A stretch of 64,000 bases of DNA from Planococcus shixiaomingii (GTDB lineage Bacteria; Bacillota; Bacilli; Bacillales_A; Planococcaceae): contig NZ_CP129236.1 in assembly GCF_030413615.1 (NCBI RefSeq), forward strand, positions 1,224,001-1,288,000, in the 5' to 3' direction. The notes under the pieces are model-generated. The model was given only the letters and a program-made list of their open reading frames with translations. It made no database searches and had not been told where the DNA came from. Positions 26,626 through 49,649 of this stretch are shown piece by piece (position 1 is the first letter of the stretch; each line of letters starts with the position of its first letter). Position numbers and translations under genes: made by a program.

Positions 26626-27090
26626 ATGGCAAAAGGTGACGGAAAAGTTATCGCGCAAAACAAAAAAGCGACATTTGATTATTTTATTGAAGAAACGATT
26701 GAAGCGGGTATTGTGTTGCTGGGAACCGAAATAAAATCAGCACGCAAAGGCAAAGTGCAACTGGTTGATGCGTTCGTGCGGATCCGAAACGGAGAAGCAT
26801 GGATTTCGAATATGCATATTGCGCCTTATGAACAAGGGAACATCTTTAATCATGAACCGACGCGTGTTCGGAAGCTATTGCTGCACAAAAAGCAGATCAA
26901 TGAATTGATCGGGGTATCCAAGGTCCAGGGCTCAAATATTATTCCGTTGAAGATGTACTTGAAGGATGGATACGCAAAAGTTTTGCTTGGCGTCGGTAAA
27001 GGGAAGAAGAACTACGATAAGCGCCAAGATTTGAAGCAAAAAGACGCGAAACGGGAAATTGATCGTGCATTAAAAGACCGCAGCCGTTAA
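26626..27090 (+). CDS. smpB: SsrA-binding protein SmpB
   Basis: SmpB carries tmRNA to stalled ribosomes. The 154-residue protein begins with the characteristic [16 protein letters not shown] and has [20 protein letters not shown] and the basic C-terminal tail ([23 protein letters not shown]) that probes the empty mRNA channel. The ATG follows GGGGTG. The tmRNA gene it serves is directly downstream. Confidence 0.97.
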
Positions 27091-27173: not shown

Positions 27174-27524
27174 GGGGACGTTACGGATTCGACAGGGATG
27201 ATCTGGGCTTGAGTTGCGCGTCGGAGGGTCGGCTTCGTCACAAACGCACTTATAATAACAGGCAAAACAAACCAAAACCTAGCATTCGCAGCGTAAGCTC
27301 GGATCTGCTTTATTCATCCATCGCCCATGTGGCTGGGTAAAGCTCAACTTTAGTGGGATACGGTCGGCAGTGCCACTTGAGCTGCAGGCAAGAGATTTTC
27401 AAGTTAGTGCCCAGGACGCCCGCTTATTGGCAGATTGGCGCATGAAACCCTAATAAGTAAGCTACACGCGTAGAGGCTCAAGTAGCGGAGTTTCTGGACG
27501 CGGGTTCGACTCCCGCCGTCTCCA
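27174..27524 (+). ncRNA. ssrA: tmRNA (SsrA)
   Basis: The one-piece tmRNA begins GGGGACGTTACGGATTCGAC and ends with the T arm GGGTTCGACTCCC and CGTCTCC; 5' GGGGACG pairs with 3' CGTCTCC as a tRNA-like acceptor stem, discriminator A. The tag reading frame is 27261-27293 and encodes GKTNQNLAFAA followed by TAA (27294-27296), giving the usual AA degradation end. CCA is not encoded. The 3' end is a classic integration target, and partial copies of it lie at 34393 and 42084. Confidence 0.95.
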
Positions 27525-27527
27525 TAG
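27502..27527 (+). other. att-like site 1: 3' end of ssrA
   Basis: The T-arm/acceptor segment of ssrA plus CATAG is repeated with two mismatches in 23 bases at 34395-34417. Islands inserted into tmRNA genes regenerate the 3' end in this way, so this is read as the left boundary of accessory DNA. Confidence 0.7.
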
Positions 27528-27550
27528 ATTAATTTCATGGAGTTTCATAG

Positions 27551-27594
27551 AACGTCAAAATCCTTGATATACCAAGGGTTTTGGCGTTTTTTGA
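27551..27594 (+). terminator. terminator T1 after ssrA
   Basis: AACGTCAAAATCCTTG pairs with CAAGGGTTTTGGCGTT (two G-U pairs) and is followed by TTTTTTGATGTCATGG. The 3' arm GGTTTTGGCGTTTTT and the downstream bases recur at 34456 and 42134. Confidence 0.9.
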
Positions 27595-27892
27595 TGTCAT
27601 GGAATTTCATAGAATATCAAATAAACCTAGTCAAAACCTTGTCAGTAACCTCGTCACTCAATGATGAAAGGGTTAAACGTTATCCCAATCACTAATAGTA
27701 TAATTTCCATTTATCATGAAAAGTAGTAAGAATAATTTTTGTTTTCATATAATTATGATAACATTATTTATAATGGAGTTTTATATTTTAGCTATGATAT
27801 GAAAGTCTTAACCAATTTTTGGTACTGGGTTTCAGGGGACTGAATTTTAGTATATATTCAGTTTAATATTTTAGGAAAGGGGAGGAAAAACG
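27595..27892. other. AT-rich gene-free leader before the sugar dehydrogenase
   Basis: This stretch is very AT-rich and holds no supported gene. TCATGGAGTTTCATAGAA (27537) recurs nearby as TCATGGAATTTCATAGAA (27597), a short direct duplication flanking T1. No confident promoter was identified. Confidence 0.5.
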
Positions 27893-29230
27893 ATGACGAA
27901 AGTTTCGTGGTCAAGATTACTGTTCTTTACAATGCTGATCTTTTTATTGGCTTTGGCAGCATGTGGCAATGGTGATACTTCAGACGAAGAATCAACTGCT
28001 GACTCGGATGCTACAACAGAAGAAAGTGCTGACAAGAGCCCTGAAACAGCAGAAGGTACTGACGAGGGCGTTGAGGAAAGTGCAGATGGAGAAGCTGCAG
28101 AGACTGAACCAAAAGTTACTGAGTTTGAACCAGCATTTCCAGAACAAACAAGAGCACCTGCAATAGAGACTGAAACAGAACTTGATGTGGAAGTTGTTGT
28201 TGACGGTCTTGGCGTGTCTTGGGGTATGGCAGAGTTTGAACCAAACCGCTTACTTGTTACGCAAAGAGATTCAGCAGAACTTCTTATTGTAAACCTTAAT
28301 GAGTTCTCTGTTTCAGAACCAATCGAAGGTACACCAGAAGTAAATAGCGAAGGTCAAGGTGGTTTACTTGATGTAACCATTGCACCTGATTTTGAAGATT
28401 CAAGATTAGTATTTTTGACGTTTTCTCAAGATGTCGAAGGTGGTACTGTAACTGCTGTCGGTAAAGGTGTTTTATCAGAGGATGAAGCCTCACTTGAAGA
28501 TTTTGAAGTAATCTTCCAAGCCGAACCAGCATATGATGGTGACTTACACTATGGTGGACGTATTATCTTTGATGATGAGGGCAACCTATTCTTAACAACT
28601 GGTGAACGTTCAGATGATCCAATTCGCGAACGTGCACAAGACTTGGATGCTTACTTAGGTAAAGTAATTCACATTACACAAGATGGAGAAGCAGTAGATA
28701 CGAATCCATTTATTGAAGATGAAGACGCACTGGGTGGCATTTACAGCTACGGTCACCGTAATATTCAAGGTGTAGACTTCCACCCTGAAACAGGAGACTT
28801 ATGGATTGTTGAATTCGGTCCACAAGCTGGGGATGAACTGAATATTATTGAACCAGGCAATAACTATGGGTGGCCGATTGTTTCTTATGGTATCGAGTAT
28901 ACTGGTGAATTAATCAATGATGGTATTTCAGAACACGAAGCGCAAGGCTTTGTTGAACCAAGATATTATTGGGATCCAACAAGTGCGCCAAGTGGTATGG
29001 CATTCTATGATAACGATGCAATTCCTGAATGGGAGAACAACTTGTTCATCGGTGGTTTAGTGTCGAGCTATATTGCACGTGTCGTTATTGAAGGTGACAC
29101 CATCGTTGGAGAAGAACGTCTATTAACTGATGAAGGCGAACGTTTCCGTGATATTCTTGTAACTGAGGATGGTGCGCTTATTGCAATTACTGATGGCGGT
29201 GTGATTTATAAGATTACTGCAGCAGGTTAA
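27893..29230 (+). CDS. PQQ-dependent sugar dehydrogenase-like lipoprotein (YliI/GSDH family)
   Basis: The 445-residue protein has a lipoprotein signal with lipobox LAAC (C24), an acidic threonine/serine-rich linker (residues about 27-75), and a six-bladed propeller of the soluble glucose/aldose dehydrogenase family (GGLLDVTIAPDFEDS, LHYGGRIIFDDEGNLFLTTGE, YSYGHRNIQGVDFHPETG). It should sit on the outer face of the membrane; no PQQ synthesis genes are in the window, so cofactor use is uncertain. GGGGAGG precedes the ATG. The codons after its stop stay open and acidic for 21 residues (to 29293), as if a longer C-terminus had been truncated. It lies in the AT-rich module next to ssrA. Confidence 0.85.
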   Translation: MTKVSWSRLLFFTMLIFLLALAACGNGDTSDEESTADSDATTEESADKSPETAEGTDEGVEESADGEAAETEPKVTEFEPAFPEQTRAPAIETETELDVEVVVDGLGVSWGMAEFEPNRLLVTQRDSAELLIVNLNEFSVSEPIEGTPEVNSEGQGGLLDVTIAPDFEDSRLVFLTFSQDVEGGTVTAVGKGVLSEDEASLEDFEVIFQAEPAYDGDLHYGGRIIFDDEGNLFLTTGERSDDPIRERAQDLDAYLGKVIHITQDGEAVDTNPFIEDEDALGGIYSYGHRNIQGVDFHPETGDLWIVEFGPQAGDELNIIEPGNNYGWPIVSYGIEYTGELINDGISEHEAQGFVEPRYYWDPTSAPSGMAFYDNDAIPEWENNLFIGGLVSSYIARVVIEGDTIVGEERLLTDEGERFRDILVTEDGALIAITDGGVIYKITAAG

Positions 29231-29362
29231 GGTGGCGCAGTTGAAAGCACGGAAGAAGACGATGTTGATACTGATGAAGACGACGACGCTAAATAATTTA
29301 TTATTCTCTAAAAGCACCCAACCTTATGTCTATGTCATTAACTTAAGGCGCTTGACAATATT

Positions 29363-29409
29363 AAAGAAGCAGGCATTCATGGAAATCCATGAATGCCTGC
29401 TTCTTTTTT
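29363..29409 (+). terminator. terminator after the sugar dehydrogenase
   Basis: An 18-20 bp near-perfect stem (AAGAAGCAGGCATTCATGG with CCATGAATGCCTGCTTCTT), loop AAAT, followed by TTTTTT. Confidence 0.95.
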
Positions 29410-29788
29410 GCTGCCTGTGCAGATTGCTGTATTGATCATGGTCATCATAATTTTTAAACCATTTCGTTTAGAACCGCTAACTCCAAAAATTTCAGTAGCA
29501 GAGACGGGAATTCCTACAACACAAGAATCTTATTGCTGGGATGGATTTTCATTTCCGCAGTGTGTAGACCATTCATACTACCCCAATTGACATGACAGCA
29601 TCCCATACCCCAACTAGGATATTCAAAAACGAGGAAATCGATATTGAATTCCCCATAGGATATCAACCCAAAAACCTGAGATTAGAGCAATAGATAGATG
29701 TAGACAATTCAAAAGTTATTGAAATAAATAATGAAAAAATTGGAATCAAGCAGATGGTAATTATGCATTCTTGATAGAGGTAGAGTAA
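29393..29788 (+). pseudogene. decayed gene for a small secreted/membrane protein (IPTTQxSYCW family)
   Basis: A hydrophobic segment (VQIAVLIMVIIIF) is followed by IPTTQESYCWDGFSFPQCVD, recalling small Bacillus proteins of unknown function with a PT-x-Q-x-SYCW motif. The frame stops at 29590, but the similarity continues in a shifted frame (PTRIFKNEEIDIEFP), breaks at an internal TAG near 29694, continues (DNSKVIEINNEKIGIK) and shifts again to DGNYAFLIEVE before a TAA at 29786. At least two frameshifts and one nonsense codon make it non-functional. Family identity is from memory of the motif. Confidence 0.65.
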
Positions 29789-29926
29789 ATAAGTAATCAA
29801 GCTGCTAGCTAACGGCGTTTACTGCCTACTTTTACTTGTCAAAACATTATTAAGAGCAACTGAATCGTGGAATTTTATACCTTCATTATTAAATACTTTT
29901 AATGCTTTCTTTGAATTACTAATACT

Positions 29927-30355
29927 TTAATCGATTAAATTTTTAAACCAGTTAGTCAATAAAGGTATCTCATCCTTATAAACTGTAGCAATGACATTAT
30001 TTCCATCTGTTATGATCAGGGAATCCAAAGGTATCTTGTTTGCCTCTACAACTTCAGCTATTCCACTAGCCGGCCAGTTAGTTCCACACAAAAATGGTGG
30101 CTCTGCTCCAACTAAAAATCGTGAAGGGTCTTTTTCTAGCTGTGAAATCAACTTGTGGTTGAGAATATAACCTCCAAATTCATACACTTGATTATTTACT
30201 TCTGCAATAATTGCTAATTTATATAATGAGGTTCTAAACAATCTTTTTTGTTCTTTAATGTGAGGTTTAATCTTAAAATTTACTTCTTTTAGTTTCAGTG
30301 ATTTCGTTTTTTCTACATGAATAGTTGCTTGGTCTAAATTCATAGGCACTTCCAT
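29927..30355 (-). CDS. hypothetical protein, 142 aa
   Basis: No known family is recognised. The protein has no signal peptide or membrane segment; it starts with a charged stretch (KTKSLKLKEVNFKIKPHIKEQKRLF) and ends with a hydrophobic/aromatic tail (LLTNWFKNLID). The ATG at 30355 is preceded by AAGGA at a suitable distance; a second ATG lies four codons in. It is AT-rich, lies alone between a broken gene and a gene-free stretch of about 320 bases, and belongs to the module next to ssrA. Confidence 0.6.
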   Translation of the reverse strand: MEVPMNLDQATIHVEKTKSLKLKEVNFKIKPHIKEQKRLFRTSLYKLAIIAEVNNQVYEFGGYILNHKLISQLEKDPSRFLVGAEPPFLCGTNWPASGIAEVVEANKIPLDSLIITDGNNVIATVYKDEIPLLTNWFKNLID

Positions 30356-30675
30356 CGTCTCATTCCTTTATCAACAGTTTGTTGTTTCATAATCTGGTCC
30401 GTTTAGTGAAGATTAACCTTTCTTAATTACATAATTAGTTTACCTAACACGCCAATAAGCCATAACGTCAACAGCTTCATTCGTACTTTCTATAAATATA
30501 CCATTTAAGTATAGAAATTAGAGGAATGTCTATATTTAATAATAAAAGTTAAAAAACCAAATTTGTGAAAAATTGATCTATCCTACTTGATGGTTACACC
30601 AACGTTCTAGCATTATAATTGTTAAAAAAACTCAAATGGTTTAAAGTTAGAAAAACACCTAAAGGAGAAAAGATA
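30356..30675. other. AT-rich stretch between divergent genes
   Basis: It contains no supported gene. A good TATAAT (30614-30619) lies about 55 bases before the desaturase start and is its likely -10, with no convincing -35 at standard spacing. Confidence 0.45.
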
Positions 30676-31572
30676 ATGTTAAATTCAGATTTGGATATAC
30701 GCTTAGAACCGCGCATTAAAGAATTATATCAATTGCATAAGGAACGTTCTGCAAATATTGACTGGAGCTATCACGAATTTATTCCATGGGACAAGGCCAT
30801 GTCCTTTAAACGAGTTCCTTGGGATGAGAGTCAAGTAACTCTTCCAGAAGGTGTAATTATTGCGGTAGAAACAGCATTACTTACAGAAGTAAATTTACCT
30901 TGGTATACTTCGCATTTGGATTATACATTTAAAAATTCAATGGAAGTAATAAATGATTTCGTACGCACTTGGACGGCTGAAGAAGATCAGCACTCTAACT
31001 TACTTGAAACGTATTTATTGGTGACACGAAACGTAAATCCCGTGAGATTGCATGAATTAAGAAAACGAGTAGTTGAAAGTGGCTGGTTTCCAGATTTCAC
31101 TAATCCTTTAGCAACAATGGCCTATACTACTTTGCAAGAGTTAGCTACACTAGTTTTTTATAATAATGTAGCTAGAGTAGCGGGTCTTTACGACAAAGAT
31201 TTAGCAACATTACTTCGACGTGTAGCGAAAGACGAAGCACTTCATTATGCATTCTATCGCGATACAGTCAAAGCACATCTTGAACTTGATCCGAATTTCA
31301 TTGTTTATTTTGAGAAGGTAATTATTAATTTCTCTATGCCAGGTGCCGTTATGCCAGACTTTAACGAGAGAATGAAAACCATTGCAATAGATACGAATTA
31401 TGGACCACTACAATACTTTGACCAAGTATTAGATGTAGTTGTTAAATACTGGGATATTGCCAACTTGCAACCTACTAGCGAAGATGCAAAACAATCACAA
31501 GCGAATATATTGAAATATCATGGGCGTTTAAAAAGAATTACAGATCGCCAGCTTGAAAAAAATAAAAGGTAG
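30676..31572 (+). CDS. acyl-[acyl-carrier-protein] desaturase, diiron (FA_desaturase_2 type)
   Basis: The 298-residue helical-bundle protein carries two iron-binding motifs, EEDQH (E102, E103 and H106) and DEALH (D186-H190), with the additional glutamates in VETALLTE and TLQELATL. This is the soluble plant-type stearoyl-ACP desaturase family, which introduces a double bond into acyl-ACP with oxygen and ferredoxin. Most Firmicutes use the membrane desaturase Des instead. The ATG at 30676 follows AAAGGAG; a longer frame from 30619 is rejected. A small CxxC protein gene follows by 23 bases. The AT-rich composition and setting suggest acquisition. Confidence 0.82.
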   Translation: MLNSDLDIRLEPRIKELYQLHKERSANIDWSYHEFIPWDKAMSFKRVPWDESQVTLPEGVIIAVETALLTEVNLPWYTSHLDYTFKNSMEVINDFVRTWTAEEDQHSNLLETYLLVTRNVNPVRLHELRKRVVESGWFPDFTNPLATMAYTTLQELATLVFYNNVARVAGLYDKDLATLLRRVAKDEALHYAFYRDTVKAHLELDPNFIVYFEKVIINFSMPGAVMPDFNERMKTIAIDTNYGPLQYFDQVLDVVVKYWDIANLQPTSEDAKQSQANILKYHGRLKRITDRQLEKNKR

Positions 31573-31595
31573 AAGTATGAAAGGGTTTTTTTATC

Positions 31596-31850
31596 ATGAA
31601 AACAACTTGCGAATTATGTGAAAAAGAAACGAAAGATAAAGTAAGTTATTTGGAACTTGAAACGTGGGAATTTAATTTTTTAAAGAAAGAGAAAAAAGAT
31701 TTTTACTCTATTTGTTTTAATTGTTTTGACAAACATACGAATAATTTTATTGACAAAGAAATGGATCTTGAATTGAGAAAAAAACGTTCTCTTTTGGTGA
31801 ATAGAGAGGTCCAAGAAGAAATCGAGGCTATTCTTGAAATCGAAAATTAA
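31596..31850 (+). CDS. small cysteine-pair protein, 84 aa, possible zinc ribbon
   Basis: Two cysteine pairs, TCELCEKE near residues 5-8 and ICFNCFDKH near residues 39-42, are arranged like a treble-clef or zinc-ribbon knuckle, followed by a charged helical tail (KEMDLELRKKRSLLVNREVQEEIEAILEIEN). It starts 23 bases after the desaturase stop and probably shares its transcript. GAAAGG precedes the ATG. No family is recognised; a metal-binding or redox helper for the desaturase is only a guess from adjacency. Confidence 0.65.
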   Translation: MKTTCELCEKETKDKVSYLELETWEFNFLKKEKKDFYSICFNCFDKHTNNFIDKEMDLELRKKRSLLVNREVQEEIEAILEIEN

Positions 31851-32520
31851 TTACTCAACTATATTTATTGAGCCTAAGTTGAAAGCATATGAGCAATAAA
31901 TTGAATCTCTTAAAATAGTATTACATGTACGTAATTTATTAAAGATGCATCACTTTAGTGAAATAGATGAAATTTGGATTGGTGAAAAGAAAATCCAATT
32001 AGGTTCCAATGATATTAACACGGCAAGAATAAATAATTGCTTCATTATATATGAGGAACCGAGGATACAGGAGTCGGAAAAAGGAAAGCCATCTTCTTTG
32101 GAGGATGGCTTTTTACGTTCTAAAATATTGAGATAGACAATAGAGGATTGTTTTGATTAAACTGTGCCAAAAAAAAAATAAACAAATAAATACAATATAA
32201 AATTTATTTTCAAGAGCACCATATAGGAAGTTATATTCCTTTGAAATCACAACCTTTATTAGTTTGAGGTTTTTTTAAATGTTTTTAAATCAACGTTTAT
32301 AGGCAATTAGCGTTCCTTTTAGTAGTTCAAATAGCTGGTGAATCGATTGAGTACATGTCTTGTTGTAAGGTGATTTTTCTTATTATAATCAAATAAAAAA
32401 AGGACCAATCACAGTCCTCTAATAACATTATTTTTTTTACAATCAATCCTCACATTAACAGACTAACCGAAAGTTTATTCATATATTAAACACACTCGGC
32501 AATTTATTAAACTATAGTAA
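31851..32520. other. AT-rich gene-poor stretch
   Basis: Apart from the terminator at 32083 nothing firm is seen. A 63-codon frame (31945-32136) runs through that terminator and has no ribosome site. An imperfect GGAC/GTCC hairpin near 32401 could end the minus-strand gene at 32521. Confidence 0.45.
32083..32116 (+). terminator. terminator downstream of the desaturase pair
   Basis: AAAGCCATCTTC pairs with GAGGATGGCTTT (one G-U) around TTTG, then TTTTA. Confidence 0.85.
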
Positions 32521-33111
32521 CTAATCTTCCCAGTAAAAAATAGCATCCATCACCAAATATTGTCGTGCATTGCGATAGATTGTCGGAATAGTTGTCTTAA
32601 ATGACAAAGGTTGATTAAGTTCTTCTGCTTCTAGTATTTCATAATTAAATTCTTTCAGCGCTTTTTCTGATTCTTTCCTAACGTTTTGAAATCTTTCACT
32701 TATGTGTAACGAATTTGGCCTATCGATTATAGAACCATATGCACCGCTAACTTCTTTGTTCGTCTCTATGTGAAGTTTCTTATATCGGTAGTCTTCACCC
32801 ATTATCGCAACTGGTGCCAACCGGCTAATATCTAGTACAATCCCTTTTGTCTCTATCTCTTGCATTCCATGCTGCTCTTCCACAATTACACGATCTTCTT
32901 TTTGATAACAAAAAAATTCAATAAAAGAGGCATAACCACTGCCAAAATGATTCCATTCAGCTTCACACACTACATTAGGAATACGGTTTATTCGATGAAA
33001 CATCCTATTGATATGCGCTACAATCTCTTGTTCATCCTTTGTATCATATGGATATGCATCACCTACAACTTTCCCCGCAATAAGTGTTTGTAATTGCTCA
33101 TTAGAAAACAT
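32521..33111 (-). CDS. hypothetical protein, 196 aa
   Basis: The protein is not recognised. It is soluble-looking with no signal or membrane segment; it has a mixed alpha/beta character with aromatic patches (AEWNHFGSGYASFIEFFCYQ) and ends AIFYWED. AGAGG lies upstream of the ATG at 33111. It stands alone, transcribed leftward and divergent from the ureohydrolase gene. A broader resemblance to immunity-type proteins of contact-dependent systems was considered, but no toxin gene is nearby. Confidence 0.6.
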   Translation of the reverse strand: MFSNEQLQTLIAGKVVGDAYPYDTKDEQEIVAHINRMFHRINRIPNVVCEAEWNHFGSGYASFIEFFCYQKEDRVIVEEQHGMQEIETKGIVLDISRLAPVAIMGEDYRYKKLHIETNKEVSGAYGSIIDRPNSLHISERFQNVRKESEKALKEFNYEILEAEELNQPLSFKTTIPTIYRNARQYLVMDAIFYWED

Positions 33112-33287
33112 ACGACAGACCTCTTTTCTGTAACTTATATCTAAAAGAAGGGAACAAGTCTTCCTTCAGAACTGTTCTTGTTAATGGACAGTACTATAGC
33201 ATCTTTGACGGATTAACCTTCGATTATTTCAATTATATCAGTATGAATACTAACAAATTATGTTTATCGGAAGGGGAGAAACATTAG

Positions 33288-34184
33288 ATGCTCAACAAAC
33301 CGATCGAGGTATATGAATTTCCTACTAATTTCGGATTGCGAAGAAAAGCGGAGGAGATTGAACCTGGGGTCAAGGCATTGCCCAAGTGGCTGAAACATCA
33401 TGGCTTTTATGAAGCACTGGGCATAGATACGGTTTATGGGCTGTCGGCTCCTATCTATTTAATGGATTATAACTCGAAGACAGGAATGCTGAACGAAAAT
33501 CAGGTGATTGAATATGCTAAGCGACAGGCGCAACTACTGGGAAAACAACTAGAGCGCAATACTTTTAAGCTGCTTATTGGAGGAGATTGCAGCATTCTGA
33601 TTGGAACGGTATTGGCATTAAAGAAAAAAGGAAATTATGGGCTATTCTTTTTGGATGGGCATACAGACTTTATCACTCCGGCACTTTCGCAAACAGGAGG
33701 AATTGCAGGGATGGATTTGGCGATAGCGGCAGGCATTGGAGAGGAAGCAATTACGAATATAGATAGACTGAAACCTTATATTCAAGAAGACCATATTTTT
33801 TGCGTAGGAAATCGAGAATTTGACACTTCATATGTCGCTCCTATCCTTGATTCTAAAATCCATTACTTCGATCTGAATCGGGTGCGCGCTGTCGGCTCTA
33901 CTAAAATTGTCGAATCGTTTCTCAAGATGGTTGAAGAAAAAGCATTGGACGGATTTTTCATTCATCTGGATGTGGATGTGATAAACGATGAGCTGATGCC
34001 TGCCGTCGACAGTAGAGAAAAAGATGGTTTTACTTATGAAGAGCTTGCTTCACTACTTCAGCCCCTTCTTCATCACTCTTTATGCATTGGGATAGAAATC
34101 ACTATTTTGGATCCTTCCTTGGATGAAAATGGTGTTTACACAAAAAAGTTTATCGATTTTTTCTTGAGTTTATTAAAAGAGTGA
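33288..34184 (+). CDS. arginase/agmatinase-family ureohydrolase
   Basis: The 298-residue protein has the ureohydrolase metal motifs: DGHTD (D123-D127), HLDVDV (D228, D230) and IGIEITILDP near residue 275. The first ligand motif, normally GGDHS, is GGDCS (C101), so one manganese site has Cys instead of His; this variant occurs in a subset of the family and leaves the substrate uncertain (arginine, agmatine, formiminoglutamate or another guanidino compound). AAGGGGAG lies nine bases before the ATG. It is the last gene of the first module and is followed by a weak terminator and the second att-like site. Confidence 0.85.
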   Translation: MLNKPIEVYEFPTNFGLRRKAEEIEPGVKALPKWLKHHGFYEALGIDTVYGLSAPIYLMDYNSKTGMLNENQVIEYAKRQAQLLGKQLERNTFKLLIGGDCSILIGTVLALKKKGNYGLFFLDGHTDFITPALSQTGGIAGMDLAIAAGIGEEAITNIDRLKPYIQEDHIFCVGNREFDTSYVAPILDSKIHYFDLNRVRAVGSTKIVESFLKMVEEKALDGFFIHLDVDVINDELMPAVDSREKDGFTYEELASLLQPLLHHSLCIGIEITILDPSLDENGVYTKKFIDFFLSLLKE

Positions 34185-34287
34185 AGGTCAAATTGCCTTA
34201 ACGAAGGCATTCCGAAGTATTAAACATGTTCTCCGTAAACCAGATAACATCATCGGTTGCTATAATCGCAACTTAATGAAGATAAAA

Positions 34288-34328
34288 TGAAAAGACAGGA
34301 ACCCAGCAAAGCTACTGGACTCCTTTTT
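34288..34328 (+). terminator. imperfect terminator after the ureohydrolase
   Basis: AGGAACCCAG (34297) pairs with CTGGACTCCT (34314), two mismatches, followed by TTTTT. Confidence 0.5.
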
Positions 34329-34392
34329 AAGAGAAGTACAAAAGTATATGTATAAAAAAACTTTGGTTCTAACATATGATTGCTAGAAAATC

Positions 34393-34417
34393 GATTCGAA
34401 TCTCGCCGTCTCCATAG
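34393..34417 (+). repeat. att-like site 2: truncated copy of the ssrA 3' end
   Basis: GATTCGAATCTCGCCGTCTCCATAG matches ssrA 27503-27527 (GGTTCGACTCCCGCCGTCTCCATAG) with only three differences. No tRNA or tmRNA body precedes it, so it is a leftover boundary (attR-like). Confidence 0.75.
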
Positions 34418-34438
34418 TGAGATAAAACAGTTAATAAG

Positions 34439-34476
34439 CGCCAAAACCTTGTTATAGGTTTTGGCGTTTTTTGATG
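34439..34476 (+). terminator. terminator T2, copy of the ssrA terminator
   Basis: CGCCAAAACCT pairs with AGGTTTTGGCG, then TTTTTTGATGTAAT. Sequence past the T tract still matches that after T1, so the whole downstream region of ssrA was duplicated, not just a hairpin. Confidence 0.85.
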
Positions 34477-34581
34477 TAATAAATTTTCTTAGAGCCTAAG
34501 ATTTAGTGGTAAACAATCTATTTAATAGGTTTGCAGACTCTGATAAGATTCTCAGACAAGGAATCAAAGTAGTTAAAATTA

Positions 34582-34650
34582 GGTGCAAAAATATTTTGCG
34601 CAAAAAAATTAAAGCATAAATTTTCTGAAAAAAACATTTGCACCTTTTTG
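34582..34650 (+). promoter_or_regulatory. inverted-repeat leader upstream of nhaC
   Basis: AGGTGCAAA (34582-34590) pairs with TTTGCACCT (34638-34646), directly followed by TTTTT; the palindrome TTTTGCGCAAAA lies between them. It could be an attenuator or a two-part operator for the antiporter gene. Confidence 0.45.
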
Positions 34651-34708
34651 TAAGTCATGGCAATATAAATGAAAGGGTTTTCAAAAAAAGACAGCAAGGG
34701 GATGAATT

Positions 34709-36178
34709 ATGAAAAAGCAGCAGGAGATAGAGATACCTTTTTTAATGGCTTTAATTCCTTTAGTAATTATGATTGCTCTTATGGCAGTCACAATCATTAA
34801 GTTTGAAGGAAGTCCGCATGTACCTTTATTGATTGGTGCAGCAGTTGCAGCAGCTATTGGTTTGCGTTATGGGTACAAATGGGATGTGATTGAAGAAGGC
34901 GCTTATAAGGGGATCCGCATGGCGCTGCCGGCAATTGTGATTATTATTTTGGTTGGCTTGATCATTGGAGCATGGATTGGCGGAGGTATTGTCGCTACCA
35001 TGATTTATTACGGATTGAAAATCATCACACCGTCGTTGTTCCTAGTAACAATCTGTATCATATGTTCAATTGTCACATTGGCAATTGGCAGTTCATGGTC
35101 CACTATGGGAACCATTGGCGTTGCCGGTATGGGTATTGGCGTGAGTATGGGAATACCGGCAGCAATGGTGGCCGGTGCTGTCATTTCTGGGGCTTATTTC
35201 GGTGATAAAATGTCTCCGCTGTCTGATACAACAAATTTAGCTGCCGGAATTACTGGCACGGACTTGTTTGAACACATAAAGCATATGATTTATACCACGA
35301 TTCCTGGTCTTATTATTGCTTTAATTGTTTACTTTATCCTTGGCAGGCAGTTTGCAGGCGCGGCAGTAGATACAGGGAACATCAGCAGTATTTTAACAGC
35401 ATTGGAAAGCAATTTCGTTATATCCCCCTGGTTATTGCTTGTGCCGCTTACAGTTGTTGTAATGGTAGCCAAGAAGGTTCCTGCATTGCCGGCTCTTGCT
35501 ATCGGAGTTTTGCTGGGCTGGCTATGCCATGTATTCATCCAGGGAGGCAGTGTGGCAGATGCAGTTAATACCCTCCATGATGGGTTTGCCATTACGAGTG
35601 GAAATGAGATGGTCGATAACCTGTTTAACCGCGGCGGTATCGATTCGATGATGTACACTGTCTCCTTGACGATTGTAGCTATGATATTCGGCGGAATCAT
35701 GGAACAAGTCGGAATGCTTCAAGCAATTGTGAAACAAATCTTAAAGGTGGCAAGATCAGCCGGCAGCCTTATCGCAGCCACAGTTGTTTCTGCATTTTTC
35801 ACAAACGCTACAGCATCTGAACAATACATATCTATTCTTCTTCCTGGAAGAATGTATGCTAAAGCTTTCAGGGACAAAAAATTGCATTCGAAAAACTTAT
35901 CCCGAGCATTGGAAGATGGCGGGACAGTCACTTCGCCTTTAGTGCCTTGGAATACGTGTGGTGTCTTTATATTTGCGACACTGGGAGTCGGGACATTTGC
36001 CTACGCCCCTTATGCCGTTTTGAACTATACCATTCCGATCATTTCAATCACCATGGCGTACTTAGGATTGAAAGTCGAATTCTTATCGGATGAAGAAATA
36101 AAAGCGCTGGAAGAAAAAGAAGCAAGACAAACGGAGGAAAATGGGGAAACCGAACCTTCAGGGTCTTTACTGACATAA
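34709..36178 (+). CDS. nhaC: Na+/H+ antiporter, NhaC family
   Basis: The 489-residue protein has about 11-12 membrane segments and the NhaC signature region SGAYFGDKMSPLSDTTNLAAGITG (split by loop residues), with SSWSTMGTIGVAGMG earlier. NhaC exchanges external protons for internal sodium and supports growth at high pH or salt. The ATG follows AAGGGGATG. The C-terminal tail is charged and cytoplasmic (EEIKALEEKEARQTEENGE). It lies just after the second att-like site, and a perfect 20-bp inverted repeat separates it from the convergent esterase gene. Confidence 0.92.
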   Translation: MKKQQEIEIPFLMALIPLVIMIALMAVTIIKFEGSPHVPLLIGAAVAAAIGLRYGYKWDVIEEGAYKGIRMALPAIVIIILVGLIIGAWIGGGIVATMIYYGLKIITPSLFLVTICIICSIVTLAIGSSWSTMGTIGVAGMGIGVSMGIPAAMVAGAVISGAYFGDKMSPLSDTTNLAAGITGTDLFEHIKHMIYTTIPGLIIALIVYFILGRQFAGAAVDTGNISSILTALESNFVISPWLLLVPLTVVVMVAKKVPALPALAIGVLLGWLCHVFIQGGSVADAVNTLHDGFAITSGNEMVDNLFNRGGIDSMMYTVSLTIVAMIFGGIMEQVGMLQAIVKQILKVARSAGSLIAATVVSAFFTNATASEQYISILLPGRMYAKAFRDKKLHSKNLSRALEDGGTVTSPLVPWNTCGVFIFATLGVGTFAYAPYAVLNYTIPIISITMAYLGLKVEFLSDEEIKALEEKEARQTEENGETEPSGSLLT

Positions 36179-36226
36179 CTACAAAGAAACATCAAGCTAA
36201 TCAAAGCTTGATGTTTCTTTGTAGTT
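36178..36226. terminator. 20-bp perfect inverted repeat between convergent genes
   Basis: ACTACAAAGAAACATCAAGC and GCTTGATGTTTCTTTGTAGT flank an eight-base loop. The T tract is poor, but the position between the convergent nhaC and esterase genes supports a bidirectional terminator. Confidence 0.7.
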
Positions 36227-36298
36227 ATATAAAAGAGGACCACTATTTTGTAACTGTCAAAAAAGAGAAGCAGTAGTATAAGAAAAGCCAACCACTAA

Positions 36299-37207
36299 TT
36301 AACTAAGTATATCTTTGTTTCGTTCCTCATATAAATCAACCGCTTCCGTGATCTTTTCCGCTACCAGCTTCCACGCCTTCTCAGCTTTATCTTTCGGACC
36401 TAAATGTGTAAATGCATGAGAAACGCCTTCGAAAACCTCATCATGAACTTCAATTCCAGCCGCTTTTAATTTCTCGACATAGAGTTCGGCTTCCGGTCTG
36501 AATGCGTCGTGTTCGGCAACGATGACCAGGGCAGGGGCTAAGCCTCTCTCGATTTCCGCATAGACAGGGGAAGCGAGCGGATTGGAAGCTTGAGTTCGAT
36601 CAGGCAGGTAACACATATTCAAAAAGTTCGCGACTTGAGGGTATTTGGCGCGCAACGGATTCGGCTCGGGTTTATCTGCGTGCGGCGTGACAAAATCCAG
36701 CATCGGACAAGATAATACTTGGAGCAGGGGCTGACTGTCCGCTTTGTCTTCAAGGTACAGACAAAGGGCTGCTGCGATGTTCGCTCCTGAACTTTGTCCG
36801 CCGACCATAATTTGTTTCGGGTCGATTTTTAACTCATGGGCTCTGTTCTTTATCCATTGGAGAATCTCGTAACTTTGTTCGAGCGGTTTCGGAAACGGGT
36901 ATTCCGGAGCTTTTGCGTAATCGATGTTAAGGATTACGCAGCCTGTCTCATTGGCCAGGAAGCGGCAATACGGATCGTCCAGCTCTTTTTCATTCATAAT
37001 GAATGCCCCACCGTGGAAGTTAATGTAAACAGGATAGTTTTCCTGTTTAGCACCTAAAGGATAGTAGAATGAAAGGTAAGTGGGCTGAACAGAAGTATCA
37101 ACCAGGAAATCTTTTTTCTCTTTTACAGGCTGCGGAGAGATCGTAGGATTTTTATATGACGAATCAGGAAGGAATCGCAGTATCTTTGCGCCAATAGTAG
37201 TTAGCAT
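36299..37207 (-). CDS. alpha/beta hydrolase, hormone-sensitive-lipase type
   Basis: The 302-residue protein has the HGGAF oxyanion motif of the HSL family, a nucleophile elbow GGQSSGAN in place of the common GDSAGG, the acid in EHDAFRPE and the catalytic His in GVSHAFTH. It probably hydrolyses short acyl esters; the substrate is unknown. GCGAGG lies before the ATG at 37207. It is convergent with nhaC and divergent from the carotenoid genes. The shifted elbow (Q-S-S-G) should still supply a nucleophilic serine. Confidence 0.85.
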   Translation of the reverse strand: MLTTIGAKILRFLPDSSYKNPTISPQPVKEKKDFLVDTSVQPTYLSFYYPLGAKQENYPVYINFHGGAFIMNEKELDDPYCRFLANETGCVILNIDYAKAPEYPFPKPLEQSYEILQWIKNRAHELKIDPKQIMVGGQSSGANIAAALCLYLEDKADSQPLLQVLSCPMLDFVTPHADKPEPNPLRAKYPQVANFLNMCYLPDRTQASNPLASPVYAEIERGLAPALVIVAEHDAFRPEAELYVEKLKAAGIEVHDEVFEGVSHAFTHLGPKDKAEKAWKLVAEKITEAVDLYEERNKDILS

Positions 37208-37359
37208 AGGGACCTCGCTTTTTTAGAACCATTTTATCCATAGGGGGGTAAATAGTCAATTGCTGAACTCTCAGCCGGCGCCAAAGAGATTTTATTCAAG
37301 TCAGTGGTGGGCTGCTGTTTAGGAAGTTCGAAGTTCGATAGTTTTGCTGTCCGGCAGAA

Positions 37360-37388
37360 TTGCCGTGCAGGTGTTGAACGGATATGAT
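37360..37388 (+). promoter_or_regulatory. possible promoter of the carotenoid genes
   Basis: TTGCCG (37360-37365) and TATGAT (37383-37388) are 17 bases apart, about 78 bases before crtP. Confidence 0.45.
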
Positions 37389-37465
37389 GAGGGTATTAAA
37401 GAAAAAGCTATGAATTGACGATATTGCTGAAAGTTGCCCTAAAATACGGGAAGGTGCTGGTTGAA

Positions 37466-38965
37466 ATGACTGAAAATAAAAAAGTTTTAATTATCGGGGG
37501 AGGACTTGGGGGCATATCCGCCGCCATTTCTCTTGCGCAACGCGGCTATAAAGTTTCCTTGTTCGAAAAAAACGACCATATCGGCGGGAAATTGAACCGG
37601 CTTGAACAGGATGGTTTCGGTTTTGACCTTGGTCCTTCGATTTTGACGATGCCGAAAGTTTTCGCTAAATTATTTGCGGACAGTGGAAAACGGATGGAGG
37701 ACTATGTGCCGATCACTCGGCTGGATCACCAATGGCGTTCTTTTTTTCCGGATGGAAACGTTATTGACTTGTATGAGGATTTGAATGAAATGGGCGAGAA
37801 GAATCCGTCATTGAGCAAACGGGATATGCGCGAATATGCAAATCTGCTGAAATACTCCAAAAAGCTGTACGATATGACCGAAAAAGGCTACTTCAATGAG
37901 GGACTGGACAGCGCCAAAGAGCTCGGGAAGTACCACGGAGCGTTTGAATCCTTCAAAGGTTTCGATCTTTTTTCGACTGTACATAGTGCCATTGATAAAC
38001 GGATCAGCAATAAGCAATTGAAGGATATGCTTTCCTACTTCACTAAATATGTCGGTTCTTCCCCTTACGATGCGCCGGCCGTTCTGAATATGATGCACTA
38101 CATGCAGCATGACCAAGGCGCCTGGTATGTGCCCGGCGGGATGAACCGGCTTGCGGACGCATTGGTGCGGCTGGCTGAAGAAATAGGCGTCCATATTTAT
38201 ACGGGAGTGGGGGTCGTGCGCCTTTACAAAGAAAAAGGCAAGATTACTGGCGCGCTGTTGGAAGACGGAGCAAAGGTAGCTGCGGATTACTACATCTCCA
38301 ATATGGAAGTCATTCCGTTTTATGAGAAGCTTCTGGATGAAAAGAAGCCTTACGTTGAAAAGCTGAAGAAGAAATTTGAACCAGCCAGTTCCGGGCTCGT
38401 GATGCATCTGGGCGTCAAAAAAACGTATCCGCAGCTGCGGCACCATAATTTCTTCTTTGCGGAAGATATGAAAAAACAGATGCAGACGATTTTCCACAAA
38501 CATGAACTGCCGGATGATCCGGTCATTTATTTGGTGAATGTGAATAAAACCGACCCGGCCCAGGCGCCGCCCGGACATGAAAATATTAAAGTGCTTCCGC
38601 ACATTCCTTATATCCAGGACAAACCTTTCACGAAGCAGGAGTATGACTGCTTTGCAGAGAAAGTATTGATCAAATTGGAACGGATGGGTCTGGTCGGTTT
38701 GCGGGAAAACATCGTGACGAAGGACATCTGGACGCCTGATGATATTCAAAAAGTCTACGGCTCCGACCGCGGCGCAATTTACGGTACATTGTCGGACCGC
38801 AACGTAAACAAAGGCTTCAAGCACCCAAAACAGAGCGACCGATACGATAATCTCTATTTTGTCGGTGGAACGGTGAACCCGGGCGGCGGTATGCCGATGG
38901 TCACCTTGAGCGGTCAGCAAGTCGGAAGAAAAATTGTTGAACGGGATAAGGCTTTAAGAAAATAA
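37466..38965 (+). CDS. crtP: diaponeurosporene oxidase, CrtP/CrtNb type
   Basis: The 499-residue FAD enzyme begins KVLIIGGGLGGISAA and matches Staphylococcus aureus CrtP throughout by recall (FGFDLGPSILTMP, FFPDG near residue 95, YVGSSPYDAPAVL, NPGGGMPMVTLSGQQV). CrtP oxidises the terminal methyl of 4,4'-diaponeurosporene toward the aldehyde/acid in staphyloxanthin-type C30 pathways. The ATG at 37466 is chosen because family proteins start there; GGAAGG is about 11 bases upstream. The longer frame from 37415 would add a poor extension. It is separated from crtN by about 370 bases containing a structured repeat. Confidence 0.9.
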   Translation: MTENKKVLIIGGGLGGISAAISLAQRGYKVSLFEKNDHIGGKLNRLEQDGFGFDLGPSILTMPKVFAKLFADSGKRMEDYVPITRLDHQWRSFFPDGNVIDLYEDLNEMGEKNPSLSKRDMREYANLLKYSKKLYDMTEKGYFNEGLDSAKELGKYHGAFESFKGFDLFSTVHSAIDKRISNKQLKDMLSYFTKYVGSSPYDAPAVLNMMHYMQHDQGAWYVPGGMNRLADALVRLAEEIGVHIYTGVGVVRLYKEKGKITGALLEDGAKVAADYYISNMEVIPFYEKLLDEKKPYVEKLKKKFEPASSGLVMHLGVKKTYPQLRHHNFFFAEDMKKQMQTIFHKHELPDDPVIYLVNVNKTDPAQAPPGHENIKVLPHIPYIQDKPFTKQEYDCFAEKVLIKLERMGLVGLRENIVTKDIWTPDDIQKVYGSDRGAIYGTLSDRNVNKGFKHPKQSDRYDNLYFVGGTVNPGGGMPMVTLSGQQVGRKIVERDKALRK

Positions 38966-39145
38966 CAGGCGATTTCTAAATAGAGAATCCATAATTGTTG
39001 CGAAAAGAGTCTGAAATTAAAACCATTATTCAAAAAACCTTTCTAAAAAAGATATTGCTTCAATCAACCATTATTTTTATAGCGATTTTCTGGATAAGAA
39101 GTTCCTGGAAAGTTAAGCTCTCTTTAGGTTCTTTCCTGTTATCAA

Positions 39146-39264
39146 GATATGGAGCAAAACAGCGGAGACTCCCGCGGGACAGCGCAGTGCCGAAATCCAC
39201 TCGGGCATAAGCCCGAGTTAGTTCGGTGCAAGCCCGCAGGAAAGCGCAGCTGTTTGCGGAATAT
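39146..39264 (+). repeat. structured intergenic repeat, family 1, copy B
   Basis: The outer AACAGC...GCTGTT frame encloses a perfect ACTCGGGC-ATAA-GCCCGAGT hairpin within a GTGCCGAA/TTCGGTGC stem. It ends TTTGCGGAATATC like copies A and C. It sits between crtP and crtN and could affect read-through between them. Confidence 0.88.
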
Positions 39265-39332
39265 CGGTTACGTAAACATAAGAGAACAGTTTCATTAACA
39301 CCATCGTATCCAATGAAAGGAGGGGAATTCAT

Positions 39333-40859
39333 GTGAAAAAGAAAGTGATCGTGATCGGTGCAGGGGTGGCCGGTCTGGCAAGCGCCATCAGACTTCAGAA
39401 TACCGGCTACCAGGTAGCGTTATACGAAAAAGAATCTACTCCCGGCGGAAAGATGAACCGGGTTGAAGTCGATGGCTATAAATTCGATTTGGGTCCGAGT
39501 ATTGTCATGATGCCGGAAGTATATCAGGAACTATTCGAGCTGTGCGGCCGCAACCCCGATGATTATATTCCGATGGAAAAACTGGATCCGATGTACCGGG
39601 CTTATTTCACGGACCGGCCCACCGAGCCTATCGATATGTCCTCTGACCTTCCACAGCTGACAAAAACGCTTGATTCGATCAGTCCGTCAGATACAGGTGG
39701 ATTCTTTCAGTATCTTCATGAGGCGCACAAGCTTTTTGCGTATGCACGTTATGATATTTTGCAGAAGCCTTTCCGCAGACACCGGGATTTCTATAATCAG
39801 GCCATAACGAAGCGGAGTTCGAAAATACGGGTGTTGGACACAGCCGACCAATTTATCGGCCGCTACATCAAAAACGAGCGGTTAAAGCAGATCATCAGTT
39901 TTCAAACGCTTTACATAGGCATTTCCCCGTATAAGAGCCCATCGTTTTATACTATGATTCCGATGCTCCAGTTTCTATACGGCGTCTGGTTCATTAAAGG
40001 CGGCATGTACACAATGGCGTCTTCGATGGAAAGGCTCTTCAAAGAACTTGGAGGTGAAATTTTCTATAATCAGACGGTGCAGGAAATCTGCATCGACAAT
40101 AAAAAAGCCACCGGAATCGTTGTAAACGGCGAGAAGGTTTCTGCAGACTTCGTGATGTGCAATGCGGACTTTCCGTATGCCATGAAAAACCTGGTCAAAG
40201 AACCGGCGGCTAAAGGAAAGTTTACCGACAAAAAAATCGACAATATGAAATACACCTGTTCTTGTTTTTTATTGTACTTGGGCATGGACAGAAAATATAC
40301 GGAAGTGAAACATGTTCATAACTTCATTTTCAATGAAAAGCTGGACAAAAACTTGGCGGACATTTTCTCTGGAAAAAAACTGACGGATGCTTCTTTCTAT
40401 GTTTATCTTGCTTCGAAAATGGATCCAACTCTTGCGCCCGATGGAAAAGATGGCTTGTATATTTTAATGCCGGTTTCAAATGTTGAGACAGCCCTTTACG
40501 ACTGGAACGATGAAACGATCGCGTATTACCGCGGCTACATTTTGAATGAGTTGAAAAAGATTCCGGGATTTGAGCACGTTGAAGAGGAAATTGTTGCGGA
40601 AACGTGCATCACGCCAGTGGATTTCGAAACGAAGTTCAATGCCTATAAAGGAGCCGCTTTCGGCCTGCAGCCGACGTTAAGTCAAAGCAACCACTTGCGG
40701 CCGCAAAGCAAGGCGACGCACTGTTCGAATTTGTATTTTACCGGAAGCAGCACACACCCGGGAGCAGGGGTCCCGATTGTGCTTTTATCCGCAAAGATTG
40801 CCGCGCAGGAACTGATAGATGACGATCAAGCGATCATTTCTACAGCTCACACCACTTAA
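39333..40859 (+). CDS. crtN: dehydrosqualene (4,4'-diapophytoene) desaturase
   Basis: CrtN makes the yellow C30 chromophore 4,4'-diaponeurosporene from dehydrosqualene. The 508-residue FAD protein begins VIVIGAGVAGLASAI and shares with S. aureus CrtN the segments FDLGPSIVMMPEVY, FQTLYIGISPYKSPS, FIKGGMY and STHPGAGVPIVL. The start is the GTG at 39333 after AAAGGAGGGG; an ATG two bases earlier runs straight into TGA. The partner dehydrosqualene synthase (crtM) is not in the window. It is followed by a glycosyltransferase 41 bases downstream. Confidence 0.93.
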   Translation: MKKKVIVIGAGVAGLASAIRLQNTGYQVALYEKESTPGGKMNRVEVDGYKFDLGPSIVMMPEVYQELFELCGRNPDDYIPMEKLDPMYRAYFTDRPTEPIDMSSDLPQLTKTLDSISPSDTGGFFQYLHEAHKLFAYARYDILQKPFRRHRDFYNQAITKRSSKIRVLDTADQFIGRYIKNERLKQIISFQTLYIGISPYKSPSFYTMIPMLQFLYGVWFIKGGMYTMASSMERLFKELGGEIFYNQTVQEICIDNKKATGIVVNGEKVSADFVMCNADFPYAMKNLVKEPAAKGKFTDKKIDNMKYTCSCFLLYLGMDRKYTEVKHVHNFIFNEKLDKNLADIFSGKKLTDASFYVYLASKMDPTLAPDGKDGLYILMPVSNVETALYDWNDETIAYYRGYILNELKKIPGFEHVEEEIVAETCITPVDFETKFNAYKGAAFGLQPTLSQSNHLRPQSKATHCSNLYFTGSSTHPGAGVPIVLLSAKIAAQELIDDDQAIISTAHTT

Positions 40860-40900
40860 ACTGCCAGCGACAGCCTAATTTATTCTAAGGAGGTATTCTA

Positions 40901-42019
40901 TTGGCAGCTTCAGATATTATTAATCTCACAGTCGGTTTTGTTGCAGTCGGGGTCGGCTTCCTCATGTTCAAATCGTTGCCAAGGCCAAAGCCAAAGCCGC
41001 GTGACGAATCAGATGTGCCATTTCTGTCGGTCATTATTCCCGCTAGAAATGAAAGCGCACGGATTACACCGTTATTGGAGTCATTAAGAGAGCAAAATCA
41101 TCGCTCATTTGAAATATTGGTGGTTGATGATGATTCAATTGACAACACAGCAGCAGTCGCGGAAAGTTTAGGGGCGAAGGTTCTTCAGAAGAAGGCAGAG
41201 CAGCAGGGGGCAGGAAAATCGGCGGCCTGCTGGTACGGCGCCACTCAAGCAAAAGGGGAATGGCTCTTGTTCTTGGATGCGGATACTTACTTCACGAACA
41301 GGGACGGCGTCCGGAATTTGCTTCTTTCTTACAAAGAAAAAGGCGCAAAGGGAATTCTGGCATTGCAGCCGTTCCATACGGTCCGAAGGCTGTATGAAAA
41401 TCTCTCTGCCGTATTCAACGTGATCGTGATTGTCGGAATGAATGTATTTACTGTTTGGGGAGATCGGTTCCAAACGGCCGGCTCGTTCGGTCCATGTATA
41501 TTAAGCAATAAAGAAGACTATTTTTTATCAGGAGGCCATAAAAAAATCGAAGGCGCTCTTATGGATGATTTGGCGCTGGGTGAGGCGTTTCTCGAAAAAA
41601 ATCTTCCCGTTCACTGCCTCGGAGGTAAAGGGATCATCTCGTTCCGAATGTACCCGGAAGGCCTCCAAAGCTTGATCGAAGGCTGGTGCAAAAGCTTTGC
41701 CATCGGTTCAAAGTCTACCCATCCCTTTGTTATGGCGATGACGATCATCTGGATTGCCGGCAGCTTCATCAGTGCCAATGCCTTAATTTCCGCCATCTCC
41801 TCAGCTGATGCTGCTGCGATAACTAGTAGTGGTCTATTGTATGGAATTTATGCGATTCAAACTGGATTGTTCGCGCGCAGAGCCGGTAATTTCCCTTGGT
41901 TCATTTTCTTGTTCCATCCCGTTCTGTTTTTATTTTTTATCGGACTCTTTATGTACTCCTTGTTCCGGGTGAATGTTCTGCACACGGTGACTTGGAAGGG
42001 ACGAAAGATAAACGTCTGA
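40901..42019 (+). CDS. crtQ: family 2 glycosyltransferase, CrtQ-like (diaponeurosporenoate glycosyltransferase)
   Basis: The 372-residue protein has an N-terminal membrane segment (about 7-25), a GT-A domain (45-270) with SVIIPARNES, VVDDDSID, the DXD-like FLDADTYF, and three membrane segments in the C-terminal quarter. S. aureus CrtQ has the same layout and adds glucose to 4,4'-diaponeurosporenoate; position after crtP and crtN supports that role. The start is the TTG at 40901 with AAGGAGG seven bases upstream. No crtO-type acyltransferase or aldehyde dehydrogenase is nearby, so the end product cannot be named. Confidence 0.85.
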   Translation: MAASDIINLTVGFVAVGVGFLMFKSLPRPKPKPRDESDVPFLSVIIPARNESARITPLLESLREQNHRSFEILVVDDDSIDNTAAVAESLGAKVLQKKAEQQGAGKSAACWYGATQAKGEWLLFLDADTYFTNRDGVRNLLLSYKEKGAKGILALQPFHTVRRLYENLSAVFNVIVIVGMNVFTVWGDRFQTAGSFGPCILSNKEDYFLSGGHKKIEGALMDDLALGEAFLEKNLPVHCLGGKGIISFRMYPEGLQSLIEGWCKSFAIGSKSTHPFVMAMTIIWIAGSFISANALISAISSADAAAITSSGLLYGIYAIQTGLFARRAGNFPWFIFLFHPVLFLFFIGLFMYSLFRVNVLHTVTWKGRKINV

Positions 42020-42083
42020 GCGAAGGGATGGTTTAGCATAGGGAATGAAAGTTTATGCTGGTATAACTGAACTTCTTACAGGA

Positions 42084-42099
42084 GCGGTTTAACTCTCGC
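42084..42099 (+). repeat. att-like site 3: very decayed ssrA T-arm remnant
   Basis: GCGGTTTAACTCTCGC resembles the ssrA T arm (GCGGGTTCGACTCCCGC) allowing several changes. On its own it would be weak, but the same terminator as at the other two sites lies 12 bases downstream. Confidence 0.45.
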
Positions 42100-42110
42100 A
42101 AACCCGTTGT

Positions 42111-42150
42111 AAAAACGCCAAAACCTAATTAAAAGGTTTTGGCGTTTTTG
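42111..42150 (+). terminator. terminator T3, third copy of the ssrA-type terminator
   Basis: AAAACGCCAAAACCT pairs perfectly with AGGTTTTGGCGTTTT. Downstream, TTTTTGAAGTAATTG parallels TTTTTGATGTAATAA after T2. It ends the crt transcript. Confidence 0.85.
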
Positions 42151-42273
42151 TCTTTTTGAAGTAATTGTTGAGTTCCTCTGCGGCTGTATGCATCAATCAA
42201 TTAAAGCTGATTTTAAAAGTCTCTATGCTCCCGCATCAAGAAAACAGAACTTCCAAAAAGCAGGAACTGCAGC

Positions 42274-43065: not shown

Positions 43066-43340
43066 GAAATTGAACTCCAATCTTTTTATGAAGGAATAGT
43101 ATATACCTTGGATATGGGAAAAAATGAGTGATAAATTACTAAAGAAGCTGTCGTGAGGTGAAGTTGGAGAAAAGCAGGAACTTTGAGAGCCAGTTTTACT
43201 ATCTCTATTTCTAACCCTATAATATATAGGTTTTTGCGGTCAAGATTAAACCCTTCTAAATAGGTCAGATTTTTCTCTGCTTGAAAGATGTATTTTATTA
43301 GATGACCTATGTTTTATATTTAATAGTATTTAAGCAATAT

Positions 43341-43397: not shown

Positions 43398-43408
43398 AGG
43401 GAAATTAA

Positions 43409-43993: not shown

Positions 43994-44023
43994 ATATCAA
44001 TCTCCTTCTTGCAAATTTCGCCA

Positions 44024-44904: not shown

Positions 44905-44936
44905 CGACTTGTTTTAAAACCTTGAGGAATAGGGGA

Positions 44937-49640: not shown

Positions 49641-49649
49641 CCAATTCGT

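Follow-up and report, generated by a model that had tools for sequence, protein, structure and literature searches.

In the 64,000-nucleotide stretch of the Planococcus shixiaomingii genome analyzed here (G000:C1:1224001-1288000, referred to as the window; genome size, 4.02 Mb), the gene for transfer-messenger RNA (tmRNA), ssrA, is followed by a tract of accessory DNA that is very probably a stack of integrase-less remnants of islands inserted site-specifically into the 3' end of ssrA. An older island would lie between two displaced ssrA ends, here named copy 2 and copy 3, and a younger one directly at ssrA, while a carotenoid-type gene block would have joined separately. The gene whose 3' end served as insertion target is intact (27174..27527, plus strand; Rfam RF00023; 27174-27524 by ARAGORN) and is preceded by smpB (26626..27090, plus strand), an open reading frame (ORF) whose best match, with 99% of residues, comes from Planomicrobium soli. 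Serial insertion at ssrA had been proposed in an earlier sequence-only reading of the window and is supported here by native sites, displaced terminators, and ssrA-side integrases in relatives and by the stacked copies themselves.

A profile built on the ssrA ends of 24 other members of the genus (including G023, whose end stops short of the terminator, and G037, which has a second copy) matched the window at 27480 (E = 1e-28), 34395 (E = 2e-12), and 42106 (E = 2.5e-6). The next-best place reached only an E value of 0.9, so the three repeated blocks noted earlier are real, and all of them fall inside one 15-kb tract; their palindromes also score on the opposite strand. At copy 2 (34393..34490, plus strand), which comprises a displaced ssrA 3' end, a terminator hairpin, and a further flank, the 25 ssrA bases at 34393-34417 carry three mismatches, as had been described, and none of 100 shuffles gave two such matches. 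With the ssrA end and its flank as query, the only other significant match in the genome was copy 2 (34395-34493, E = 2e-9), and the runner-up had an E value of 0.3. Copy 3 harbors a displaced, perfectly palindromic ssrA-type terminator (42111..42149, plus strand), and its core, GCCAAAACCT/AGGTTTTGGC plus GTTTTT, has exact matches at 34440 and 42117 and nowhere else in the genome. In a genus-wide, hand-counted placement of this terminator (eight candidates scored per genome, copy 3 of the window omitted), 26 of 29 distinct places were ssrA ends or displaced ssrA ends, and the other three, in G026, G045, and G009, lay away from ssrA. The earlier view that this is not a common, scattered hairpin thus holds. 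The similarity said to continue past the T tract was found for ssrA and copy 2; none is visible at copy 3.

The genus set comprised 46 genomes including that of the window (G000), and ssrA was present in all of them. From the 45 relatives, stretches of 20 kb starting 1 kb upstream of ssrA were taken; those of G004 (19.8 kb), G009 (14.8 kb), G036 (3.4 kb), G026 (1.6 kb), and G040 (1.3 kb) were shorter, and those of G008, G038, and G030 were lengthened to 40 to 80 kb. Empty sites, which the sequence-only reading had set as a test, exist: 26 of the 46 genomes showed a native end throughout and no second copy at an E value of <0.1 within the stretch viewed, a label that is partly given by construction (23 of the 26 were in the defining profile) and is compatible with gains further downstream. 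A flank that we call class A follows ssrA in four genomes (G000, G030, G032, and G038; 93 to 100% identity over 121 to 125 nt), and a class B flank follows it in 11 (G006, G008, G019, G022, G025, G026, G027, G028, G034, G044, and G045; 80 to 100% identity, E = 2e-17 or better). Two genomes (G031 and G037) combine a native-type flank with a second ssrA end, and the site was unclear in three (G009, G021, and G040). Distal ssrA-type ends were present at an E value of 1e-4 or better in 15 of the 46 genomes, with a weaker one in G025 (E = 0.0016), and G030 has three stacked copies in addition to ssrA. Of the class B genomes, nine of 11 have a profile match behind ssrA that stops short of the terminator and carry the complete end, terminator included, at the distal copy; in the remaining two, the distal terminators are weak (G025) or the stretch ends too early (G026).

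Occupied sites were furthermore compared with empty ones in nine pairings with hand-chosen partners. In eight of these, covering seven genomes (G006, G008, G022 with two relatives, G019, G028, G045, and G027), the DNA behind the displaced copy rejoined the ssrA flank of the empty relative, with pieces of 72 to 97% identity. Directly behind the occupied ssrA, matches to the empty flank were confined to G045 and G027, in both of which the 1.5-kb segment used extends into the distal copy.

An ssrA-linked integrase, which the earlier reading had suggested looking for in relatives, was found in two forms. G030 and G038 encode a class A tyrosine integrase of 395 amino acids directly behind ssrA on the minus strand, with a second integrase adjoining; at least G006, G008, G019, and G022 encode a class B tyrosine integrase at the same place on the plus strand, and the gene is broken in G028. 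The class A protein has Arm-DNA-bind_4, SAM-like, and catalytic domains, the class B protein SAM_4 and catalytic domains. Behind inner copies, G030 also retains short class B and class A integrase remnants. In a family set of 261 genomes, class A matches at an E value of 1e-60 were present in 88 genomes, and class B matches at 1e-40 in 70. All of the best 12 class A and best 12 class B loci had an ssrA 3' end within the 1.5-kb flank (E of about 2e-12 or better), and ARAGORN called a complete tmRNA beside 20 of these 24 loci. Five of the 24 belong to genomes of the genus set described above, including those that supplied the queries. No match at an E value of 1e-5 was obtained with class A and class B queries in the stretches of G000, G032, G025, G027, G034, G044, and G045. 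Together with a PF00589 scan, whose five matches in the G000 genome all lie outside the window, this bears out the statement that no integrase is seen in the window; the G000 genome likewise has no class A integrase at 1e-60. One integrase elsewhere in this genome (C1:549682-550260) was considered as a helper in trans and rejected: it shares about 30% identity with class A, and no tRNA or tmRNA was found by ARAGORN in the 15 kb around it.

The ssrA flank in the window (27528..27665, plus strand) is of attL type and represents the left end of a class A island that lacks the integrase. It is 97.5% identical to the flank in G038 over 121 nt, and its similarity to the G030 and G038 left ends, which starts at 27528, stops near 27665, where the C-terminal end of their integrase gene begins. 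Between G000 and G038, the left end is 94.8% identical over 134 nt and smpB 81.1%; for G030 and G038, the values are 96.3% over 1,309 nt of left end plus integrase and 81.8% for smpB. Since the ends are far more alike than smpB, the class A end must have travelled rather than descended with the gene. The repeat ACCTAGTCAA at 27625..27634 (plus strand) is a candidate integrase arm site; exact or one-mismatch repeats of it occur in the left ends of G030, G038, and G032, and repeats of this type are also found about 80 nt upstream of the distal copies in G030 and G038. The left end in the window keeps one full repeat and lacks a second. The presence of an end known from integrase-bearing islands, with the integrase missing, fits the earlier description of the modules as fixed relics or elements mobilized in trans.

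While attL is clear at ssrA, a class A right end is visible at copy 3 and not before copy 2. The sequence at 42058..42099 (plus strand) appears to be a decayed island right end with a decayed ssrA end: it is 81% identical to the right end of the G030 island over 43 columns (E = 8e-6 within the window), 26 of which precede the ssrA-like core, and copy 3 ranks third (E = 7e-4) when the G030 right end is used as a query against the genome. The sequence downstream of the copy 2 hairpin is similar to the class A left end (79% with gaps), and the counterpart of copy 2 in G032 is more so (94% over 34 nt). Based on these resemblances, copy 2 is best read as the putative left end of the older island and, at the same time, the far boundary of the younger one. 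As a G030-type right end precedes copy 3, the older island probably spanned the segment between copies 2 and 3.

Both marks expected of such insertions, a restored gene at one boundary and a displaced 3' fragment at the other, are present in the window. Each island would have carried a copy of the ssrA 3' end that restored the gene on insertion, and would have displaced the previous 3' end and its terminator away from ssrA. First, a class A island would have come in whose left and right ends survive as copy 2 and copy 3, respectively. A second insertion at ssrA would then have placed the present flank there as the left end of the later island and made copy 2 the distal limit of that island. 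The integrases would have been lost, presumably by deletion, and the carotenoid-type block would have joined separately next to copy 3. We infer the order of the two events from position and decay and the recombination itself from the ends that it would have left.

The hairpin now behind ssrA (27545..27595, plus strand; fold, -26.7 kcal/mol; z = -8.2) is terminator-like and island-borne, and the assumption that the hairpin at ssrA was the parent of those at copies 2 and 3 was therefore dropped. A capture of this hairpin from a Planococcus ssrA was considered: class A loci of other genera conserve it, although native flanks of several species match it at 74 to 81% over 50 to 69 nt. Compared with shuffled sequences, this hairpin, both displaced terminators, the native terminator of G024, and the class B hairpin of G006 gave z scores of -4.8 to -8.2. 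By our own hairpin-calling rule at a single setting, a terminator-like hairpin lay within 120 nt behind the ssrA end at 23 of the 24 family integrase loci versus 25 of 400 random windows, and in 11 of 15 island-type genus flanks (not in G027, G034, G044, and G045), five genomes being in both sets. In both island families, the restored tmRNA end is thus followed by a terminator-like hairpin supplied by the island, which is possibly a new point, and these hairpins would be expected to terminate transcription. If they do, this would explain why repeated insertion at the 3' end of an essential RNA gene can be tolerated. More tentatively, and with a chance of being right that we put slightly below that of being wrong, two ssrA-specific integrase groups in Planococcaceae may use island ends that restore the tmRNA 3' end together with a strong terminator, such that insertions swap the terminator and insulate ssrA from the cargo, and the discarded native terminators form a readable, ordered fossil record.

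The gained tract extends beyond copy 3. Native chromosome resumes near 54393 (54393..55541, plus strand), where DNA matches that found 130 bp behind ssrA in G024 (78% over 1,146 nt) and similarly in G013 and G004; the aldo/keto reductase gene located there (54471-55541, PF00248) follows ssrA in all three genomes. The tract gained is therefore about 26.9 kb long, and 42.1 kb, previously taken as its outer limit, is an inner boundary. Module 1 (27666..34392) has a G+C content of 35.6% compared with 45.9% upstream, confirming its description as AT-rich. Pfam matches identified a sugar dehydrogenase-like gene (27893-29230), a gene of the fatty acid desaturase 2 family (30619-31572), and an arginase-like gene (33288-34184) sharing this low-G+C DNA, alongside small unknown ORFs. 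The arginase-like gene and the gene at 29927-30355 are common to G032 at the same place. Three unknown proteins of the module were considered as defense genes and rejected, as none matched PADLOC.

Module 2 contains an Na+/H+ antiporter-family gene (34709..36178, plus strand; Pfam), which follows ssrA in three of the 46 genomes within the stretches fetched (G000, G025, and G032). Adjoining it, an alpha/beta hydrolase gene, two amine-oxidase-family genes, which we take to be CrtN-like, and a glycosyltransferase gene form the block at 36285..42025 (Pfam), which ends about 33 bp short of the copy 3 right end. The block was dropped as island cargo since the same block is found at other loci in G025, G024, G030, and G032 (82 to 85% identical), with a rearranged counterpart in G023 (71 to 74%); judging by this distribution, the carotenoid-type block is a separate insertion. 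Its flanks, where compared, show long likeness only between the right flanks of G030 and G032, and those of G025 and G030 have 49 nt in common. Its sharp edges and its different loci in the close relatives G025, G024, and G030/G032 suggest that the block moves as a unit. The G000 genome contains another CrtN-like pair elsewhere. The remaining accessory tract (42160..54392; Pfam) encodes PAS, CHRD, sortase, Usp, APH-like, metallo-beta-lactamase fold, deaminase, MFS, NUDIX, D-glutamate cyclase-like, and other proteins. In G025, CHRD and sortase genes lie nearer to ssrA than the antiporter gene, opposite to the window, with ssrA-like terminators between them; the modules may have been reshuffled there.

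Several observations weigh against a stack of island remnants. Class A and class B queries gave no integrase remnant above background in the tract from 27.4 to 54.5 kb. At the true outer edge near 54393 there is no recognizable ssrA-type copy, 42160-54392 lacking any profile match below an E value of 1, and upstream of copy 2, the resemblance of the module 1 right end to that of class A islands does not go past some 27 core bases. The G038 right end matches copy 3 weakly (E = 0.015), and the tmRNA-like letters before this copy are weak alone, with 2 to 3% of random windows scoring equally high; the interpretation of copy 3 was retained because of the island right-end sequence. The antiporter gene of G032 directly adjoins the CHRD gene with no copy 3 between, and the ninth occupied/empty pairing, G038 with G021, gave no match.

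Some of these points would suit a different origin of the 34.4- to 42.1-kb segment, with a native antiporter gene and with local duplication, or one insertion plus rearrangement, as the source of copies 2 and 3. In its favor, the G025 antiporter gene is flanked on both sides by ssrA-like terminators found by motif (profile matches weak, E = 0.66 and 0.02), its order relative to the CHRD gene differs, and G032 lacks copy 3; however, copy 3 bears island right-end sequence foreign to ssrA, and an antiporter gene behind ssrA in just three of the 46 genomes speaks against a native gene, so that we regard this origin as unlikely. It is about equally improbable that the modules are still working cis-mobilizable elements whose ends recombine when a class A integrase island enters the cell. 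The nearly intact ssrA flank with its ACCTAGTCAA repeat and the movement of class A ends and integrases between species (96.3% versus 81.8% for smpB in G030 and G038) would allow for this, but the missing second repeat, the decay of copies 2 and 3, the unrecognizable right end of module 1, and the lack of a class A integrase in the genome at 1e-60 argue otherwise. That copies 2 and 3 are unrelated terminators resembling that of ssrA by chance is hardly credible: despite the weak tmRNA-like part of copy 3 and the three genus places away from ssrA, the profile values of 2e-12 and 2.5e-6 against 0.9 for the next place and the 26 of 29 placements at ssrA ends reject it, outright for copy 2, and copy 3 is accompanied by an island right end. 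Integrase-less island remnants stacked at ssrA thus remain the preferred reading.

The region is a further member of the known kind of tandem ssrA islands and cis-mobilizable elements (CIMEs), here with tyrosine integrases and in another family. As far as the accessible parts of the respective articles go, tandem ssrA islands with and without integration genes have been described, with the same explanation, in Dehalococcoides (PMC3146451). Those use a serine recombinase, whereas relatives of the Planococcus region carry two groups of tyrosine recombinases; moreover, the displaced Planococcus end retains its terminator, and the island supplies its own hairpin. The decay of islands into CIMEs and later accretion are reviewed in PMC5704250. 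As in CIMEs and their accretion with integrative and mobilizable or integrative and conjugative elements (ICEs), integration genes are lost and tandem stacks form at the 3' end of a gene; CIMEs keep both attL and attR, of which the window has a clear attL at ssrA and a class A right end at copy 3 only. The target here is ssrA, and the tract gives no sign of a conjugative origin. Among the 27 tract proteins covered by the Pfam scan, which took in small ORFs only in part, no integrase, phage, or conjugation family was matched. The absence of integration and transfer genes (class A and B queries, PF00589, and these 27 proteins) is as in CIMEs, and the lack of conjugation and phage structural genes among the same proteins sets the region apart from ICEs and prophages; as no integrase was found in the tract, we class it as remnants and not as an intact island. 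Like the tRNA and tmRNA islands cataloged by Islander (PMC4383910), in which the RNA gene is split, the island restores it, and a displaced fragment marks the far end, the region has such fragments; unlike in typical cases, these fragments have decayed and form a stack, and the integrase is missing. Bacillota islands with large serine recombinases target ssrA in Clostridioides difficile and Clostridium perfringens and form tandem composites at rlmH (PMC10061031). These depend on serine recombinases, and the Planococcus example in that article, a large serine recombinase, is not tied to ssrA. ssrA islands in Planococcus are not described in the part of PMC10061031 available; as only open-license literature was considered, other reports may exist in print. 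Islands predicted in one Planococcus strain do not name ssrA as target in the accessible text of PMC7294307.

The ssrA site of this genus is an insertion hotspot with two integrase groups, at which integrase-bearing, integrase-less, and native sites occur side by side. It points to tyrosine integrases associated with ssrA ends, and the displaced terminators are usable as a record of past insertions. In another genus, three clustered class B matches were found at G199:C1:590541-613495, one of which adjoins a 3' fragment of ssrA but no full tmRNA; this is probably another stack. A module of about 0.7 to 1.3 kb with a common 70-amino-acid ORF lies between ssrA and a second ssrA end in G027, G031, G034, G037, G044, and G045, four of which have class B flanks. 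Among a chosen few proteins of class A islands, anti-phage functions were represented by QatA/QatC and type I restriction in G038 and a Dsr2-like protein in G030. Beside the integrase-bearing island of G038, ssrA itself is three bases short in the T arm region and receives no tmRNA call from ARAGORN, reflecting either damage or an assembly error.

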